Origin: Pseudomonadota bacterium
GTDB lineage: Bacteria; Pseudomonadota; Gammaproteobacteria; Eutrophobiales; Eutrophobiaceae
Direction: 5' to 3'
Assembly: GCA_013112535.1 (NCBI GenBank)
Contig: JABFGI010000009.1
Span: 1 to 64,000, forward strand
Length of the DNA stretch: 64,000 bases
The notes under the pieces were generated by a model, which searched no databases, was not told the origin of the DNA, and saw only the letters and a program-made list of their open reading frames with translations. Each line of letters starts with the position of its first letter. The stretch's first letter is position 1. Shown piece by piece: positions 11,110-25,981 of the stretch. The position numbers and the translations under genes were made by a program.

Positions 11110-11114
11110 GAAGC

Positions 11115-11816
11115 ATGTCTGATAGCTCAAAATACTGGGTCGTTATTCCAGCTGCTGGTGTCGGTAAACGCATGGGTGTTGATAAACCGAAACAGTATAT
11201 TTCAGTTAATGGCAAGACTATCATTGAACATACTATTGATTGTTTTATTAATCGCGAAGAAATAGAAGCTGTTGTTGTTGCGATTTCAAAAGCAGATGAA
11301 TATTGGCCAGATCTGGAAATAGCCAAGCATGAAAAAGTAATTGCAGCGCCGGGTGGTGTTGAACGTTATCAATCTGTGTTTAATGGTTTGCAAGTATTAC
11401 AGGATAAAGCAAAAAAGAATGATTGGATTCTGGTTCATGATGCAGCGCGACCTTGTTTGAATCAGTCAGCTATTGACAGGTTGATCATTAATTTACGGAC
11501 GCATGATGTTGGCGGAATTCTGGCAATGCCTTGTCGGGATACAATGAAGCGAGCGAATGAGTCTGGTGTTATCGTAGATACAGTTGAACGTGAGTCACTT
11601 TGGCATGCACAAACACCGCAGATGTTTAAATATGGGAAACTATTTTCTGCCATTGAAAAAATACTGGATGGCGATATTGTTATTACAGATGAAGCGATGG
11701 CAATGGAGTTAGCCGGTTATAATCCAATGCTTGTACAAGGGCATCAGGAAAATATAAAAATAACCCATAAAGATGATCTGCAATACCTGGAACACTTTTT
11801 AAATGAGATGACATAA
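11115..11816 (+). CDS. ispD: 2-C-methyl-D-erythritol 4-phosphate cytidylyltransferase
   Basis: Third enzyme of the non-mevalonate (MEP) isoprenoid pathway; attaches CMP to methylerythritol phosphate. The 233 residues show the nucleotide-binding loop [17 protein letters not shown] near residue 12, VHDAARP near residue 103, and TPQMF near 165. It starts at an ATG with an AGGAAG ribosome site. It is followed after one base by ispF, the next-but-one enzyme of the pathway. Confidence 0.97.
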
Positions 11817-11817
11817 G

Positions 11818-12291
11818 ATGCGAATTGGACACGGATATGATGTACATCGTCTTGTTGAAGACCGACCTTTAATTTTGGGTGGGGTGACTATTCCTCACGA
11901 AAAAGGTCTTGAAGGTCATTCGGATGCAGATGCTGTGATACATGCCTTATGTGACGCCATACTTGGTGCACTGTGTTCAGGGGATATTGGTAATCATTTT
12001 CCTGATACCGATCCGGAGTTAAAAAACGTCGACAGTCGTTTATTATTAAAACAAGTATTTAGTTTGATGAACGAGAATGATTACGAACTAGGCAATGCGG
12101 ATATCACTATTCTCGCACAAGCACCCAAGATGGCAGGATATATTCCGGCAATGAGAGAAATCCTGGCTAGTGATTTAAAATCAAAAGTGGAAAATATCAA
12201 TATTAAGGCCACAACCACAGAAAAGATGGGTTTCGTTGGCCTTGGAGAAGGCATAGCCGCGCATGCTGTCGTTTTATTAAAGTCTTTCTAG
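11818..12291 (+). CDS. ispF: 2-C-methyl-D-erythritol 2,4-cyclodiphosphate synthase
   Basis: Cyclises CDP-methylerythritol phosphate in the MEP pathway; forms a zinc-dependent trimer. The 157 residues contain the metal site GHGYDVHRL at the start, [15 protein letters not shown] near residue 34, and the C-terminal [14 protein letters not shown]. It ends the pyrG-ispF run. The final 21 codons have a divergent second copy at 17556-17618, a remnant beyond the rpf locus. Confidence 0.98.
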
Positions 12292-12448
12292 AATCAATTC
12301 ACAAAAATAGCTCTTCTTATAGCTGTAAAAAGTAATATAGTTTAAGGGCATCATCATTCGGTTTAGTGGCATTGTTCTCGTTATCTGTGAGATGAATGTT
12401 CTCAAAATCAAAGGATGATTTCTTTAATCAATAATAAGGAGATTCATT

Positions 12449-13372
12449 ATGAATACTGTCAGATACAGTAGTGAGGTTGAAAACTTCGAACAGTTTAATT
12501 TGAAAACTCAAACGAGTTTAGAAAATAATCTAGACGAGTATCATTTTTTACATCAAAAGTTTGATAGAGAAAGACGAATTTTGTGGCTGTATATGAAACC
12601 TGAAGGAAGACAATGTTTTTCAATAAATTTACTTAAAGACATGATGGCTCAGCATGAATTATTATTGGAAAATCATGGGATATATTATCATGAACATATT
12701 CCATACAAGGTGCATTATCAAGTGCTCACTTCGGAAGTTGGAACACCTTATAATCTTGGAGGGGATCTTGAGTTATTTATTAAGTATATAAAAGCTAAAG
12801 ATCGAACTTTACTTAGAGAGTATGCAAAGTTATGTATTAATGTATTGCATCCAACAGCAATTAATTTTGATTCTACTATAAAAACGATATCACTTGTTAG
12901 GGGGCAAGCATTAGGAGGTGGGTTCGAATCTGCTTTATCGAGTAGTCTTTTGGTGGCTGAGAAAAGTGCAAAACTAGGGTTGCCTGAAGTACTTTTCAAC
13001 TTGTTTCCAGGTATGGGAGCCTACCACTTATTAGCGAGGAGACTGCCAACCGCTCAAGTTGAAAAAATGATTTTAAGTGGAAGAGTATATGACGCTAAAG
13101 AACTCTATGACATGGGTGTCGTTGATATTTTAGCCGAAGATGGTGAAGGCGAAAAAGTAATCTATGATTATGTCGATAAACATAAACGCCATATTAATAC
13201 TCAAATTGGATTACAAAAGGCTCGGCAAATTTACCAACCGATTACACATTCGGAACTTATGCGTGTGTGTGACGTTTGGGTAGATGCAGCTATGCAATTG
13301 GAATCTCGTGACTTGAGAGTTATGGAACGTTTAGTGAAAGCCCAGTATAGAATGGGCTATGAGAAAAATTAA
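12449..13372 (+). CDS. rpfF: RpfF-like DSF synthase (crotonase superfamily)
   Basis: Predicted to make a cis-2-unsaturated fatty acid signal (diffusible signal factor), acting as acyl-ACP dehydratase and thioesterase. The 307 residues follow Xanthomonas RpfF in order: YNLGGDLELF near residue 101, GQALGGGFESAL with Glu160, GLPEVLFNLFPGMGAY with Glu180, and a C-terminal WVDAAMQLE. Glu160 and Glu180 lie 20 residues apart, as do the catalytic Glu141/Glu161 of Xanthomonas RpfF. These residues separate it from ordinary enoyl-CoA hydratases. A strong AAGGAG ribosome site precedes the ATG. It converges on rpfC, the same arrangement as in Xanthomonas. Confidence 0.92.
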   Translation: MNTVRYSSEVENFEQFNLKTQTSLENNLDEYHFLHQKFDRERRILWLYMKPEGRQCFSINLLKDMMAQHELLLENHGIYYHEHIPYKVHYQVLTSEVGTPYNLGGDLELFIKYIKAKDRTLLREYAKLCINVLHPTAINFDSTIKTISLVRGQALGGGFESALSSSLLVAEKSAKLGLPEVLFNLFPGMGAYHLLARRLPTAQVEKMILSGRVYDAKELYDMGVVDILAEDGEGEKVIYDYVDKHKRHINTQIGLQKARQIYQPITHSELMRVCDVWVDAAMQLESRDLRVMERLVKAQYRMGYEKN

Positions 13373-13486
13373 AGCCAATAAGTACTATTACATAAACGAT
13401 GACAATATGAAGTTTTCTTATGCAACTTAGTAATTTAAAAGCTTTATGTGTGTTGAGTAATTGTCTAGATAGGATGTCTCTTTTGC

Positions 13487-16024
13487 TTACACCTCAATAT
13501 TTTTCTTCATTTTTTTATATAGGTAGGTATAAAGTTTCTGTTTAGTCTCTGTGAATGTAGTTTCCAAATCAGAAAACTGACTATTTATCTTAGAGTCGTT
13601 TTTAGATTGACAGCTATCTAATAAACCATTACATATCTTAGCTAATCTTTTTGCTCCCACATGTCGTGAACTACCATCAATAGAATGGGCTAGTTCATAA
13701 ACATTTTCGTACATTTTTTTCTTTATTTCAGAATTTAGTTCTTCTATCAGATTTGTTGCCTCGTCAATATAATTATTAATAAGGTTTGGTAAAAAATTTT
13801 CTTCATTTGTCATGGAAGACAACATATCTAGAGCGTTAGTGTCTATAAGAGGTAATGCATAAGGATCATTGATGTTGATAATATTTAACATTGAATTATC
13901 ATTAAATGAACTATTTTTGTCTTTGATTAATCTTGATATGGAATCAAGTAACCTTTCAGGTTCAATAGGTTTTGTCAAATAAGCATCTAGCTGGGCTTCT
14001 TCGCAAGCATTTTTTGCTTCTTTTGTTGCATTAGCTGTTAAAATTATAATAGGTACATGTTTTTTATCGGGACACATAAAGCGATATATCTTAGCTGCTT
14101 CAATGCCTCCCATTACAGGCATTTGCATATCAAGTATAATTATATCAAATTCATTTTCTTCAAGAATATTGAGTGCTTCCTCGCCATTATTTGCCAAAGT
14201 AACAATGTGATTTTCAAATTCGAGAATATTTTTTATAACTTTCTTGTTAGTTTCATTATCTTCGCCGACAAGAATTCTTAAACTATCTAACTTAGAAGGG
14301 AAGTTTTCATCTTCTTCAGAATTTTTTTTGTTATCTGATGCTGTAATGTTAACGCCAGCAACAGCAGCATGGGTAATTCTAAAAAGTGTAGTTCTATCAG
14401 GTGAGCTATTGATGATTGATGTGTAACCCGAATTTAATAATTGAGAGTGTAGTGAAGGCGAAAGTTCATTATCATTAATTAGAATAAAAGATTGATTCCT
14501 TAAAGAAGAGTTAAGTCTCATCTCTTTTATAAAGTTAACTGGATCAGTATCTAAATGTTTTTGAAATACAAATATAATAGAGTAAGGGTTTCCTGTATTA
14601 TTTGATTTTAAATTCATACCGATGGCTTGTTCAACATTATCAGCACAATCAAATGTAATTGGCCATAATGATAAATAATTTTCAATAGACTGGTTTTCTT
14701 TTCTTATTGGGTTAACTATGAGTGCATGAGAGTTATATAAATGAATTATTGATTGATTTTCTTCTGATAATATTTCTTGTTGTTCAAATTCTACTTCAAA
14801 CCAAAAGGTTGTTCCTTTGCCCGGTGTACTATTAAAGTCAATTTCTCCATCTAGTGCTTCTACAAGTTGTTTGGCGATTGCCATCCCCAGACCTGTGCCA
14901 CCAAAATTACGAGTCGTCGATTCATCTGCTTGTGTAAACTTGCTAAACAATTTTGTTTTATCATGTTCAGAAATTCCGATTCCGGTATCTACAACTTCAA
15001 ACCTGATTCTGGTGTTTTTGGAATTAGATAAGACAGGTTTAACATAAATCTCAATAAAACCCTGGTTCGTAAATTTAATTGCATTACTAACCAAATTGAT
15101 AATAATCTGTTTAAGGTGAAGTCTGTCACCACGTAATAGAAAAGGCGTGTCTGCAGAAATATGTACATTAAATAATATATTTTTACTCTGCGCTTCTGGT
15201 GACAACATCATTGTTGTTGAGTTAATTAATGCATGCAAATCAAAATCAAGAGTTTCTATTGAAACCTTTCCAGCTTCTATTTTAGAAATATCCAAAATAT
15301 CATTAATTAGAGTTAAAAGAGTATTTGCGGAAGCATTTATTGTTGATGCAAAGTCTTTTTCTTTTGGTGGAAGTTCAGCTTTAGAAAGTAATGAACTCAT
15401 CCCAATGACGCCATTTAGTGGCGTTCGTATCTCATGGCTCATGTTTGCCAGGAATTGACTTTTAGCTTCGTTTGCAGCCTTAGCTTCATTAATTAGACGA
15501 TGCAATTTTGATATGAGTGATGACAGATAAGCAGTTAAGAATATAATCGAAAAAATTATTCCGTAGCTTAATATTTTTTGTTCTATCCAATATTCATTAT
15601 TGGTTATGACAATAGCAAAGCCAATTACACTCAAGCTTGAACTTGCGAAAAGGTATTTGTTTCCATAACGAAATCCATTGCCAAAAGATATCCATAGGTA
15701 CAAAAAGAATAATGATGAGCCAACATGGTTTGATAGGCATATCATATATGTAAGTGTGCTCATGTCGATGAACATGGCGAATATTCTACGAGAAACGGAT
15801 ATTTTATCTGAGAATAAAATTCGCACAAATAGAACCAAAGCTGTAACTAAGGCTGCGGAATTAACTATTAACAGATTTGTGTATTGATTGAGTGAGTCTT
15901 TAAAATAATAAAAGTAACCTGCCAGTAAAATTAAAATAATGATCCTTATTGCGCTTTGCTCAAATTCACTATCAGGACGATTTTTTAAGCGATATAATAT
16001 TAAATTTAGAGGTTTATTTTCCAT
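13487..16024 (-). CDS. rpfC: RpfC-like hybrid sensor histidine kinase (DSF sensor)
   Basis: This 845-residue inner-membrane sensor has several transmembrane segments (about residues 23-40, 50-70, 80-100, 105-140, 150-172) and a HisKA domain with the phospho-accepting His197 in [12 protein letters not shown]. An ATPase domain follows (NLVSNAIKFT near 312, DTGIGIS near 347, GGTGLGMAIAKQL near 375), then a receiver-like stretch at about 430-555 that lacks the Asp and Lys, a full receiver with Asp632 in ILDMQMP, and a C-terminal HPt domain with His780 in AHSIDGSSR. The layout matches RpfC, but the extra degenerate receiver makes it longer than Xanthomonas RpfC. It should sense the RpfF product. 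It lies downstream of rpfG and faces rpfF. Confidence 0.9.
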   Translation of the reverse strand: MENKPLNLILYRLKNRPDSEFEQSAIRIIILILLAGYFYYFKDSLNQYTNLLIVNSAALVTALVLFVRILFSDKISVSRRIFAMFIDMSTLTYMICLSNHVGSSLFFLYLWISFGNGFRYGNKYLFASSSLSVIGFAIVITNNEYWIEQKILSYGIIFSIIFLTAYLSSLISKLHRLINEAKAANEAKSQFLANMSHEIRTPLNGVIGMSSLLSKAELPPKEKDFASTINASANTLLTLINDILDISKIEAGKVSIETLDFDLHALINSTTMMLSPEAQSKNILFNVHISADTPFLLRGDRLHLKQIIINLVSNAIKFTNQGFIEIYVKPVLSNSKNTRIRFEVVDTGIGISEHDKTKLFSKFTQADESTTRNFGGTGLGMAIAKQLVEALDGEIDFNSTPGKGTTFWFEVEFEQQEILSEENQSIIHLYNSHALIVNPIRKENQSIENYLSLWPITFDCADNVEQAIGMNLKSNNTGNPYSIIFVFQKHLDTDPVNFIKEMRLNSSLRNQSFILINDNELSPSLHSQLLNSGYTSIINSSPDRTTLFRITHAAVAGVNITASDNKKNSEEDENFPSKLDSLRILVGEDNETNKKVIKNILEFENHIVTLANNGEEALNILEENEFDIIILDMQMPVMGGIEAAKIYRFMCPDKKHVPIIILTANATKEAKNACEEAQLDAYLTKPIEPERLLDSISRLIKDKNSSFNDNSMLNIININDPYALPLIDTNALDMLSSMTNEENFLPNLINNYIDEATNLIEELNSEIKKKMYENVYELAHSIDGSSRHVGAKRLAKICNGLLDSCQSKNDSKINSQFSDLETTFTETKQKLYTYLYKKMKKNIEV

Positions 16025-16043
16025 GTAGAAAGATGAGTATTAT

Positions 16044-16190
16044 TTATTTGTTTTCTCGAATATTAATGATCTTATTTTGACTGGAAAATAATGCATCAAC
16101 GCAATCTGGATTGAAATGCTTTCCTTTTTCTTTCTTTATATATTCAGGGGCTTCGTCTAAAAGCCAGGCATTCTTATGGGAATGTCCTGA
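16044..16190 (-). pseudogene. 3' fragment of a second rpfG
   Basis: On the minus strand this stretch encodes a C-terminal tail related to intact RpfG. It contains KNAWLLD, YIKKEKGKHFNPDCVDAL and about 18 further codons to a stop at 16044-16046. By my alignment 19 of 30 positions match RpfG (KAAWSLD, YIKSEKGKHLDPDCVEAL). No start codon or upstream domains remain. It ends 20 bases before the rpfC start, exactly where an operonic rpfG would be expected, while the intact rpfG lies just beyond it. Confidence 0.8.
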
Positions 16191-16227
16191 CAATTAATTA
16201 TAAGCCTTACACAGATTTAATGTGAAA

Positions 16228-17283
16228 TTAGGTTGTTATATCATCTGTTTTTTCAAGTAACGCCTCAACACAATCAGGATCAAGATGTTTTCCTTTTTCA
16301 CTTTTAATATAATTAATCGTTTTATCTAATGACCACGCAGCTTTATAAGGTCTATGATTTGTTAAAGAATCAAATACATCAGCAACGGCAACTATTCTAG
16401 CTTCTATCGGTATGTCATTAGCTGAAATTCCATATGGATATCCTGTGCCATTGTATTTCTCATGATGGTTTAATGCGATTAATGCACCGGTTTGCAGATA
16501 CGGAGACGGGCTATCTTTTAAAATATCATAGCCTATCGTTGTATGAGTTTTCATCTTTTTAAACTCGAACTCAGTAAGCTTTCCTCTCTTTAGAAGTATT
16601 TCATCTGGAATGGCAATTTTTCCAATATCATGTAAAGGTGAGGCAATTCTTAAAATATCTGCATTAGATTCATTTAGTCCTAGTTCAAGAGCAATAATGT
16701 AGCTTATGCGACCAATTCTTTCTAAATGTGCGCCGGTGACGCAGTCTTTATATGCACATGCTTTCGTCAGTCTATCGAGAGTTTCCTGTTCTCGAATATG
16801 TATTTCTTCTGATGATGCGTTTATTTTCTTTGTTAAAGATTGGCTGCGTCTTTTTAACTTTGATTGATGTTTTGCAAGTGACAGCAAATTTTTACATTTT
16901 GATTTGTATTCGGTTTTATCAAAGGGTTTATTTAAAAAGTCATTCACCCCATTTTCAAGAGCTTCATATAGTATTGCTCTATCTTTCATAATGGTGATCA
17001 TCATGATTGGAATGTCTTTACAGCCTGGTATACGACGAAGTTTCTTTGTGAATTCGATGCCGTTCATAACTGGCATTCTATAATCCGTAATAATCAAATC
17101 AGGTGATGATTTTTTTACTTCTTTAAGTGCTTCACTAGCATATTGAAAAGGTTTTATTAAGACTTTTTCATCGATATTTTTTAATGTTTCAGCAAGAATA
17201 TCAAGGCTGGAAGCTTGGTCATCTATAATCATAATCGTTGATGTGAACTGCTTTTCAGATAGCTTTTTAAATGATAAGAGCAT
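16228..17283 (-). CDS. rpfG: RpfG-like response regulator with HD-GYP domain
   Basis: This 351-residue cytosolic regulator has a receiver domain (residues about 15-135; phospho-acceptor Asp67 in IITDYRMP, conserved Lys119 in NKPF), a helical linker, and an HD-GYP domain. That domain has the metal-binding HDIGKIAIPD (His218-Asp219) and HHEKYNGTGYP (GYP at 281-283), so it looks catalytically complete. The predicted role is cyclic di-GMP hydrolysis on phosphorylation by RpfC. It is transcribed before rpfC, with a relic of another rpfG between them. The upstream 270 bases presumably hold the operon promoter. Confidence 0.9.
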   Translation of the reverse strand: MLLSFKKLSEKQFTSTIMIIDDQASSLDILAETLKNIDEKVLIKPFQYASEALKEVKKSSPDLIITDYRMPVMNGIEFTKKLRRIPGCKDIPIMMITIMKDRAILYEALENGVNDFLNKPFDKTEYKSKCKNLLSLAKHQSKLKRRSQSLTKKINASSEEIHIREQETLDRLTKACAYKDCVTGAHLERIGRISYIIALELGLNESNADILRIASPLHDIGKIAIPDEILLKRGKLTEFEFKKMKTHTTIGYDILKDSPSPYLQTGALIALNHHEKYNGTGYPYGISANDIPIEARIVAVADVFDSLTNHRPYKAAWSLDKTINYIKSEKGKHLDPDCVEALLEKTDDITT

Positions 17284-17555
17284 AATTGAATATTTCTTTT
17301 TTAGTTATGGTAAATATAACGTAAAGTTTACTGAGTATAGCTAATAAGGCATTGTTTTTTCAAATAATTAATAAATATCTTCTGTTTGTCCAAAAATTTA
17401 GTGCAAAATTAAAGTAAAAACATCAGCTCTTTGACGTAAGTAGTTGTTTACTTGCTTTATTGGGGCGTCTTTTTCGAAACTATTTTTTTACAACAAGAGA
17501 AAAGTTAAACAAATTATTTAGCTCTAAGGTTGAAAATATGATTTTTAAATGAAGA
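17284..17555. other. AT-rich intergenic DNA upstream of rpfG
   Basis: No gene or recognisable RNA is visible between the rpfG start and the ispF-like fragment. It presumably carries the rpfG-rpfC promoter on the minus strand, but no convincing -35/-10 pair or regulator box stands out. Confidence 0.4.
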
Positions 17556-17618
17556 ATGGGCTTCATTAGTCTTGGAGAAGATATTGCCGTACATGCGGCT
17601 ATTCTATTAAATAGATTC
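17556..17618 (+). pseudogene. 3' end of a second ispF
   Basis: Twenty-one codons starting at an ATG read MGFISLGEDIAVHAAILL and then NRF. They match the C-terminus of the intact IspF ([18 protein letters not shown], then KSF) at 13 of 21 positions. No upstream ispF sequence is present. It lies directly against the 3' end of the degraded rpfC copy, as intact ispF lies upstream of rpfF and rpfC, and so marks the edge of a duplicated or imported segment. Confidence 0.85.
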
Positions 17619-17619
17619 G

Positions 17620-18741
17620 TTATTTTTTATCTTCTAAAATTAAATTTAGTGCAACTTTTGTTTGTTTAAATATAAAATAAAGTCCTTGTAGATGATCTTG
17701 CGATAAAGATACATTTTTTTCTTTATTAATTTAGACAAAGTACTGAACAGTACTAGCCATTTCTTGTCCCTATAGAACATGATCTGCCATCCAGCTTATG
17801 AAAAACATTTCTTGTTTCATCATTGTCAATATTTTCTACTAATGTTGTTAATTGTTCCACCATTTATGCAGTATCGTTTACATAACCGTCAATAACATCG
17901 CGTATAAAAATTATTTTTAGACATAGAAAACAATGTGTCTAATGCTTCTGTATCAAGTAATGATGAATGATTTGTATAATTTTTCTTGTTTAACTATCTA
18001 CTATCCTTAACTAATCAAGAAATAGTTTCGAGAAATTCATCAGGTTCAATGGGTTTGGTTATATAAGCATCGACATTCGCTTCATTGTATTATTAAGTTG
18101 CTTCGGTTGTTGCATTTGCGATTAAAATTTAAACAGGTGTATTTTTTTGAGGGTGGCTAATATAAAAAAGTTTTGCTGCTTCTATCTTGGAAATATCAAG
18201 AATATCATTGATTAATGACAATAGTGTTTTTGCAGAAGCATTAATCGTTGATGAATAGTCTTTTTGTTTTTCATCAAGCTGTGTTGTCGAGAGCAAGAAA
18301 CTCATTCCGATAATTCCGTTGAGTGGCGTCCGAATTTCATGGCTCATGTTTGACAGAAACCGGGACTTTGCCTCGTTAGCAGTTTTCGCGTTAGCAACTG
18401 CAGCATGCAATTTATTAATAAGTAGCGAGATATATAAAGATAATGCGATCGTAATAATGAAGAAACTATGGGCAAGATTCTTTTGTCCTTACCAGAATGG
18501 GCTAAAGTTTATGACGATACTAAAGCTGATAATACTGAATATAGTGCTGACTATTAGAAGCTGCTTGCCAAAGCGAAGGCCATTACCAAAGGTTATCCAT
18601 AAATACAGAAAGATTAATGGTGTTCCTGCATCATTAGATATGTAAATCATATAGGTCAGTATGGCCATATCCAGAAAGGCCGTTATGATTTTAAATGCAA
18701 TTGTCTTCTTTTATTTGTTTAATTAGTACTTTAATTTTCAT
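17620..18741 (-). pseudogene. Degraded second rpfC (internal deletion, frameshifts and stops)
   Basis: Minus-strand pieces occur in the same order as in the intact RpfC: membrane part (FLDMAILTYMIYISN, then LYLWITFGNGLRFG) at about 18530-18690, HisKA ([28 protein letters not shown]) at about 18180-18360, receiver C-terminus (DAYITKPIEPDE) near 18040-18090, and HPt remnant (HKLDGRS) near 17800. The ATPase, degenerate receiver and first half of the true receiver are missing; HisKA is joined straight to the receiver at a shared Ile-Glu-Ala-x-Lys. Several stops interrupt the receiver part and the HPt part is in another frame. A short intact reading frame at 18129-18410 covers HisKA only. Confidence 0.88.
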
Positions 18742-25117: not shown

Positions 25118-25981
25118 TTACTTAATCTCTTCCACTTTTATTAATACATTCCTCTGTTCTTGCCCACGTTGCTTGGTACGTATCACATTCGCACGACTAT
25201 CATTATTGTAATGTTGTGTGCTGCCACCGATTTGTATCCATTCGCCTAATCTGCCTGTTGCAGTCGTTTCGACTTCCTGTATATCAAATATCGCAGCCTG
25301 ATTTGGACTAACGCGTGACAGGCGTGGTGCGACGAGTAAGGTGACATTGTCGCCTTGTAATCTTGGTAAGACGTAAAAGCCGGATGTGACATCACGGTAT
25401 TCAACGCCATTTTGTACGACGATACCGGCACCGGTAACAACAGCACTTTGTGTGGGTATGGGTACGGAATTCCCGACATTGATATGTGCCGGGTGTCCTT
25501 CCAGTGTCTGGATACGAAAAACATTCCTGTCTTCGATGTTGGAGCGCGTTTCTAATGTGCGATAACGAATCATATTACCGTCACTGTCCTGTCCCTGTAT
25601 GATGGCGCCTTCATTACTGATATCAGGCGATTCAATTCTGACATTACCAGAGTGATAGCGTCCGGATAGTCCGCTTTCATTTGTCTTTAAACTGCCATCG
25701 ACGTTTTGTTTCACGCTGATCATTAACCGACGTGGTGCGTTATCGAGTTTGGCAAGAACTTGTTTTATTTGTTTTAGATTGGAGGGGGTAGACTTAATGA
25801 TAAGTTTACCGTTCATCCCGGTAACGGTACCGCCTTCGGCAACGAGTGGTTTAAGAACAGGAATAATATCTGATACCACGCCATGTTTTAATTCGATAAT
25901 TTCCAGCTTCATCGAATCCGCCATCACAGGTGTAACACCGATTATGAATAGTAAAAAAACATGTAAAAATAATTTATTCAA
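25118..25981 (-). CDS. Secretin-like / NolW-type exported protein
   Basis: This 287-residue protein has a clear signal peptide (LFLHVFLLFIIGVTPVMA). It is followed by a secretin short-domain (NolW-type) fold: ELKHGVVSDIIPVLKPLVAEG and a GMNGKLIIKSTPSNLKQIKQVLAKLD block near residues 33-80. The rest (FRIQTLEGHPAHINVG near 160 and VLPRLQGDNVTLLVAPRLS near 212) resembles the gate region of secretins but is far too short for a complete pore. It overlaps the upstream gene by 4 bases in a probable operon with purB. Role unknown. Confidence 0.7.
   Translation of the reverse strand: MNKLFLHVFLLFIIGVTPVMADSMKLEIIELKHGVVSDIIPVLKPLVAEGGTVTGMNGKLIIKSTPSNLKQIKQVLAKLDNAPRRLMISVKQNVDGSLKTNESGLSGRYHSGNVRIESPDISNEGAIIQGQDSDGNMIRYRTLETRSNIEDRNVFRIQTLEGHPAHINVGNSVPIPTQSAVVTGAGIVVQNGVEYRDVTSGFYVLPRLQGDNVTLLVAPRLSRVSPNQAAIFDIQEVETTATGRLGEWIQIGGSTQHYNNDSRANVIRTKQRGQEQRNVLIKVEEIK

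Follow-up and report, generated by a model that had tools for sequence, protein, structure and literature searches.

The rpf cluster of Xanthomonas campestris, in which rpfF converges on rpfC and rpfG, is covered by a 2015 review (PMC4504480) whose available portion also lists clusters outside the xanthomonads, in Methylophaga, Leptospirillum, Thiobacillus, and Methylobacillus, and places RpfR-type DSF systems in Burkholderia, Yersinia, and other bacteria. According to excerpts of PMC5391125, DSF docks on the membrane-adjacent RpfC residues R15, D17, S18, E19, and Q22 in Xcc numbering. A dienoic variant of the signal, CDSF (a 2,5-dienoic DSF), is known from Xanthomonas oryzae (excerpts of PMC4542539). 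The available part of a survey of two-component quorum sensing (PMC8895600) contains no case like the locus described here.

We analyzed a window of 64,000 nucleotides, namely positions 1 to 64,000 of contig JABFGI010000009.1 (assembly GCA_013112535.1), from a gammaproteobacterium of the family Eutrophobiaceae. A first-pass annotation of these letters had reported a complete DSF locus of the Xanthomonas kind. Its observation is confirmed and its interpretation is partly supported. The DSF system is of a known kind, and clusters outside Xanthomonas had already been reviewed in 2015 (PMC4504480). Nor is the locus a simple inherited unit, since its rpfF is a foreign allele and its rpfC a chimera. 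The mosaic make-up of these two genes, a decayed second rpfC, and duplicated ends of rpfG, smr, and ispF were absent from the first reading.

Results

An intact rpfF-rpfC-rpfG system

The locus consists of three genes:

12449..13372, plus strand: rpfF, DSF synthase, 307 aa (open reading frame; catalytic E160 and E180)
13487..16024, minus strand: rpfC, hybrid sensor kinase, 845 aa (open reading frame, Pfam, structure model)
16228..17283, minus strand: rpfG, receiver plus HD-GYP phosphodiesterase, 351 aa, native lineage (open reading frame, Pfam, tree, motifs)

Coordinates and strands are those first annotated, rpfF is convergent with rpfC and rpfG, and all three genes are unbroken and keep their key residues. 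Both catalytic glutamates of the crotonase fold are found in RpfF, and E160 and E180 are invariant in 24 of 24 alignment rows, the window's included. The parts of RpfC are also as described: a multi-helix N-terminal domain in the structure model (pLDDT 93.9), then HisKA (187-252), HATPase (299-414), receiver (584-696), and HPt (748-816) by Pfam. Its phospho-residues are H197, D632 in LDMQMP, and H780 in AHSIDGSS, the latter two counted from motif positions. Compared with the PDB, the sensor model gave no match at E 0.001 or better. RpfG has receiver and HD domains by Pfam and retains the motifs TDYRMP, HDIGK, and HHEKYNGTGYP.

By its sequence, the window RpfF belongs with the DSF synthases and does not fall among general enoyl-CoA hydratases, a placement that the annotation had named as fatal to its reading. 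A role as general hydratase was rejected on profile scores, PDB sequence matches, and structural matches. RpfF scored 337.8 bits against NCBIfam PRK08788 (cut-off 177) and 64.5 bits against the best general hydratase model in the profile search. The PDB sequences of RpfF and its homologues matched at 1e-43 or better, the next match being at 3.3e-12, and the corresponding structural matches were at 9.4e-23 or better, followed by one at 2.7e-13. The nearest solved structures are thus Xanthomonas RpfF and its Burkholderia and Cronobacter homologues, and then comes a large gap. The strict NCBIfam RpfF model NF053515 (cut-off 550) was not reached by the window protein, at 216.5 bits, nor by the RpfF of genome G191, a member of another family, at 241.1 bits. 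An RpfR-type system was also rejected: the Paraburkholderia, Yersinia, and Pantoea RpfF rows, presumably rpfR partners, form a separate 100/100 clade without the window, and the neighbor here is rpfC.

The genome (3.05 Mb in 20 contigs, 99.03% complete and 0.07% contaminated) contains one rpfF; two further weak matches lie in open frames of 700 and 720 codons. At E 1e-20, rpfF was found in 25 of 53 genomes of the family, typically between eno-ispD-ispF and smr-purL and facing rpfC, often with rpfG, although several of these loci are cut by contig ends and some are without rpfC or rpfG. This shared address and the PRK08788 score, over its cut-off, are more than chance would give. The flanking ispF, smr, and purL do differ from those of Xanthomonas, as had been pointed out, but they are not odd, being the usual address in Eutrophobiaceae, and the same address occurs in G191. 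Three congeners (G001, G008, and G010) gave no rpfF match at E 1e-20. Elsewhere in the data, G035 has two different rpfF loci (L042 and L050), and in G060 (L153) rpfC copies flank rpfF on both sides. The title of the L060 contig, Mycobacterium sp. KBS0706, may be wrong; the RpfF encoded there clusters mostly with those of Alphaproteobacteria.

Other features of the genome were also recorded. Two matches to fae (formaldehyde-activating enzyme) exceeded the cut-off, at C1:406352-406828 and C8:26409-26903, and suggest a methylotroph. A dsrA match stayed under its cut-off, and a search for pMMO gave no match, its control being equally silent. In the window, the open reading frame at 25118-25981 resembles secretin N-terminal domains by eye.

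A foreign rpfF allele between native ends

The rpfF gene is foreign after about codon 10, and its junctions were mapped as follows:

12449..12476, plus strand: native 5' end of rpfF, where colinearity with the DNA of congener G003 ends
12477..13372, plus strand: foreign part of rpfF, sister of G191 from another family (tree, AU test, DNA break)
13471..13482, no strand assigned: 12-mer AGGATGTCTCTT in the rpfF-rpfC gap, native 3' flank (locus comparison)

Window and G003 DNA are 80% identical over 11114-12476, a stretch that holds the upstream region, the ribosome site, and nine rpfF codons, and then the match breaks sharply; judged by eye, native-like protein may continue to about codon 22. 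On the other side, 4 loci out of 206 contain AGGATGTCTCTT: one is that of the window, and the other three are overlapping loci of G003. The exchange is therefore bounded by native sequence at both ends.

A 24-row tree of five neighboring genes (eno, ispD, ispF, smr, and purL) makes G003 the sister of the window, with a support of 88, and unites window, G003, and G004 with a support of 100. In an RpfF phylogeny, which the annotation had proposed as a check, the sister of the window protein is G191 of another family and not a congener (100/99, 78 rows). At 60% identity, the G191 RpfF is the best match among 369 genomes of the class after the window's own, whereas identity to the window's own family is at most 47% over near-full-length matches, and a fragment from G018 reaches 51% over 199 residues. 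With G191 in the set, AU tests rejected a grouping of the window RpfF with the type-B clade (p 0.00038) and with G003 alone (p 8e-11); in an earlier set without G191, neither the type-B grouping (p 0.495) nor the family grouping (p 0.217) was rejected. The tested groups were picked after the trees had been viewed. Three duplicate records (L059, L071, and L083) were removed ahead of the trees, the 78-row tree leaves out 10 long rows, and L099-L137, mostly Streptomyces and distant hydratases, were left out. Flanks were compared for 20 of the 54 matching genomes of the class and a few others. The window rpfF is a foreign allele of a type found in another family.

The G+C content of rpfF (0.357), rpfC (0.315), and rpfG (0.336) is lower than that of ispF, eno, smr, and purL (0.39-0.42), but we kept it out of the evidence because the comparison covered genes of the window alone. 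Three other candidates were considered. A close plasmid source was rejected, as the 14 matching plasmid records are all below 60% identity, the ten listed being at 36-40%. One G191-like donor of the whole cluster was likewise rejected, given RpfC and RpfG identities of 39% and 51%. A second, independent rpfF replacement in G002, G005, G007, and G009 was not retained: their sequences stand apart in the tree, but the type-B grouping was not rejected (p 0.213).

The desaturase linked to rpfF in relatives

In 9 of the 25 family genomes with rpfF, a fatty-acid desaturase gene lies directly 3' of it (eight complete, and one, in G017, cut by a contig end). Among the 89 loci searched at E 1e-5, only these nine, all of the window's family, carry it (L035, L041, L042, L044, L045, L047, L048, L049, and L052); 5 of 12 genomes of the genus have it. 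It matched PF00487 in the three cases tested, with histidine boxes seen by eye. No match to it was found in the window's own genome at E 1e-10. The G003 desaturase is distantly nearest to a Delta(5) DesA model, at 79 of 500 bits. From its linkage, the desaturase may act on the DSF signal, making it a possible unrecorded enzyme of DSF chemistry; titles and abstract openings in our literature search suggested no rpfF-linked desaturase.

In several congeners, rpfF and the desaturase face rpfC1-rpfG, some having a second receptor gene, rpfC2. Both rpfC genes are present in G003 and G007, with rpfC1 on the rpfF-desaturase side and rpfC2 adjoining smr. Congeners also show apparent stages of rpf loss. 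In G002 (L055), a shortened rpfF adjoins smr, rpfC and rpfG gave no match, and purL and ispF are in pieces, where sequence errors are possible. G005 (L052) has a short rpfG of 189 aa, and in G004 (L151) a broken rpfC2 is the sole rpf remainder.

A chimeric RpfC receptor

RpfC is a chimera in which an rpfC2-type sensor sits on an rpfC1-type C-terminal half. The exchanged segment is:

15485..15973, minus strand: sensor segment of rpfC, rpfC2 type, about codons 18-180, edges approximate (blocks, trees, DNA)

Residues 17-180 group with rpfC2 (100/100), and placement in the rpfC1 clade of the genus was rejected (p 1.9e-7). Residues 416-842 are instead sister to G003 rpfC1 (93/91, below the star), and an rpfC2 grouping was rejected (p 0.0047). 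The kinase part sides clearly with neither. Identities by block agree with the segment trees, whereas the full-length tree, which leaves out 4 rows, puts the window protein simply in the rpfC2 clade (99/99). At the DNA level, the long match to G003 rpfC1 covers 13634-15484 of the window, the rpfC2 match extends further, to 15766, and the start of rpfC (to 15970) lies inside a match to the rpfG-rpfC1 junction of G003. The edges of the swap are approximate, given these overlapping matches and a 44-base stretch matching rpfC1 (15647-15690) inside the rpfC2-type sensor. The G191 sensor is only 24-36% identical to the window's in three blocks; a single G191-like donor therefore did not supply both rpfF and the sensor.

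All five DSF-docking residues are kept in the window RpfC (R16, D18, S19, E20, and Q23); these hook residues, R16-Q23, sit at the edge of the swapped segment. Most rpfC1 copies also keep them, and they do not tell the two sensor types apart; the sensor alignment comprised 29 sequences chosen out of about 70 RpfC copies. Another position does vary with the desaturase. The window rpfC has W111 and N116. All 4 rpfC2 copies, including the decayed one of the window, likewise have tryptophan at position 111, as do 49 of the 57 copies from loci that lack the desaturase; among the 8 rpfC1 copies beside a desaturase, none does. Those eight have F (seven) or T (one) at 111 and H or Y in place of N116. 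The eight copies without the desaturase that lack the tryptophan comprise six with F, one sensor-less fragment, and one gap. The pattern, which may reflect few changes on the tree, is a lead rather than a test.

Scars of a probable tandem duplication

Remnants of additional gene copies lie between and beside the three genes:

16044..16178, minus strand: 3' end left from a second rpfG; the DNA is colinear with the rpfG-rpfC junction of G003 (DNA comparison)
17417..17453, minus strand: 3' end left from a second smr (DNA comparison, shuffles)
17552..17613, plus strand: 3' end left from a second ispF, joined to decayed rpfC2 as in G004 (DNA comparison, shuffles)
about 17640..18716, minus strand: decayed rpfC2, with stops and frameshifts and its ATPase part gone, ends approximate (Pfam, tree)

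The order upstream of rpfG is thus smr fragment, ispF fragment, and decayed rpfC2, the last orthologous to the rpfC2 of G003 and G004. Both the ispF and the smr scar reached a score of 54; the highest scores in 200 two-base-block shuffles were 29 and 32, respectively, and those in 170 further window stretches were 28 and 28. A weaker smr 3' fragment is present in G003 too. The scars are consistent with an ispF-to-smr unit that would have been duplicated in tandem and later have collapsed.

Native RpfG and apparent constraint on the circuit

RpfG is native: its tree places the window protein as sister to that of G003 with a support of 99. Ratios of dN/dS were 0.14 for rpfG, 0.15 for the rpfC body, and 0.19 for the sensor, compared with 0.07 for ispF and 0.05 for eno; rpfG, the rpfC body, and the sensor appear to be maintained, the ratios being rough as dS (1.1-1.9) is near saturation. 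A search for GGDEF matched the genome 43 times, a few of the matches being two pieces of one gene, and cyclic di-GMP is therefore probably available to RpfG.

Discussion

The locus combines intact genes, a foreign rpfF, a chimeric RpfC, a native RpfG, and duplication scars, in a genome where the desaturase linked to rpfF in relatives was not found. We consider it likely, with a probability of roughly 0.78, that these form a working DSF-to-cyclic-di-GMP circuit built on a recombination mosaic and that the type of signal changed, with an ordinary DSF perhaps taking the place of a desaturated one. The structure and history of the genes come from computation; the activity of the proteins, the chemistry of the signal, and the specificity of the receptor are predicted from sequence, and by analogy the circuit would work as in Xanthomonas. 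Starting from 3-hydroxyacyl-ACP, RpfF would produce a cis-2-unsaturated fatty acid, the RpfC membrane sensor would detect it, and phosphate would travel via the RpfC receiver and HPt to RpfG, which would degrade cyclic di-GMP.

The ancestor would have carried ispF-rpfF-desaturase facing rpfC1-rpfG, plus a tandem second unit with rpfC2 adjoining smr. An rpfF allele of a type known from another family would then have taken the place of the rpfF-desaturase segment after about codon 10, in frame and with the native upstream region and ribosome site left in front of it. In rpfC1, the part that encodes the sensor would have given way to its rpfC2 counterpart, and rpfC2 itself would have decayed. We infer this order of events, and likewise that the synthase and the sensor shifted jointly to suit a new signal. 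A more specific version is tentative, and we would sooner bet against it than for it: congeners would use a desaturase-modified DSF, perhaps dienoic, read by an rpfC1 sensor without the W..N pair, and here a dialect switch would have taken place in situ with RpfG retained, a plain-DSF synthase being imported, the desaturase dropped, and a W..N sensor grafted onto the old receptor. The dienoic idea comes from the distant resemblance of the linked desaturase to the Delta(5) DesA model.

The strongest competitor keeps the exchange within the locus. The foreign-looking rpfF could be the old synthase of the second tandem unit, moved together with the rpfC2 sensor into the first, as might be suggested by the scars of an ispF-to-smr duplication, the rpfC2 type of the sensor, and the lack of an rpfF immediately next to rpfC2 in the window, G003, G004, and G007. 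This is possible but doubtful: the rpfC2-type sensor is distant from that of G191, so that the unit itself would have been mixed, and a second rpfF beside rpfC2 was seen in no genome examined. That the locus is an ordinary, vertically inherited one with a merely fast-evolving RpfF is very improbable. It would agree with the address shared across the family and with AU tests that did not reject it before close relatives joined the set, but not with a sister in another family (60% identity, 100/99) against at most 47% in its own (51% for a fragment), the DNA break at 12476, the AU rejection once G191 was included, or a genome in which the desaturase was not found.

A contig misassembled from two strains is the least probable explanation, with odds we put close to nil. 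The genome is in 20 contigs, but it is 99.03% complete with 0.07% contamination, the reading frame is kept across the rpfF junction, which has native sequence on either side, the change of rpfC type falls inside one open frame, and the join of the ispF remnant to rpfC2 recurs in the independent genome G004. It is also improbable, if less so than vertical descent, that RpfF is mainly a thioesterase feeding lipid turnover, with a circuit that is not quorum sensing. RpfF enzymes generally free fatty acids from acyl-ACP (available portion of PMC4504480), and congeners have lost parts of the system; against this stand the intact co-located sensor and regulator, their low dN/dS, and the DSF-docking residues that are kept. 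We thus favor the recombination mosaic with a changed signal.

To our knowledge, how a signal and its receptor can change together without losing communication is an open question that has been studied mainly in peptide systems. This locus and its nearest congeners offer defined states for it, with the desaturase present or absent, a native or a foreign synthase, and two sensor types on related kinase bodies. If the more specific version above is true, it would be a cross-family, domain-level signal switch in fatty-acid quorum sensing. The product of the rpfF-linked desaturase can be sought directly.

Among its relatives, the window shares with the G003 locus (L047) the flanks, the upstream region and first rpfF codons, rpfG, the C-terminal half of rpfC, and rpfC2, but in G003 the desaturase is present, rpfF is of type B, and rpfC1 has T..Y for W..N. 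The G191 locus (L182) has the closest RpfF found (60%), the same gene order, and likewise no desaturase match, but its RpfC and RpfG are only 39% and 51% identical to the window's. With the rpf cluster of Xanthomonas campestris (3m6m and 3m6n) the window locus has in common the convergence of rpfF on rpfC-rpfG (PMC4504480, available portion), the catalytic glutamates, the order of RpfC domains, the docking pattern R-x-D-S-E-x-x-Q, and the HD-GYP regulator. It differs in that neither rpfH nor rpfB lies among or next to the three genes, in its flanks, in an RpfF 36% identical to the 3m6m chains by structural alignment, and in its mosaic rpfF and rpfC and decayed extra copies. As in rpf-1 and rpf-2 of Stenotrophomonas maltophilia, for which horizontal transfer has been proposed, synthase and sensor input co-vary at one locus (excerpts of PMC4517397). 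However, those are strain variants whose differences lie chiefly toward the N termini of RpfF and RpfC (same excerpts), whereas in the window the linked desaturase is missing, a segment of the sensor has been exchanged, and the synthase, over nearly its whole length, groups with another family.
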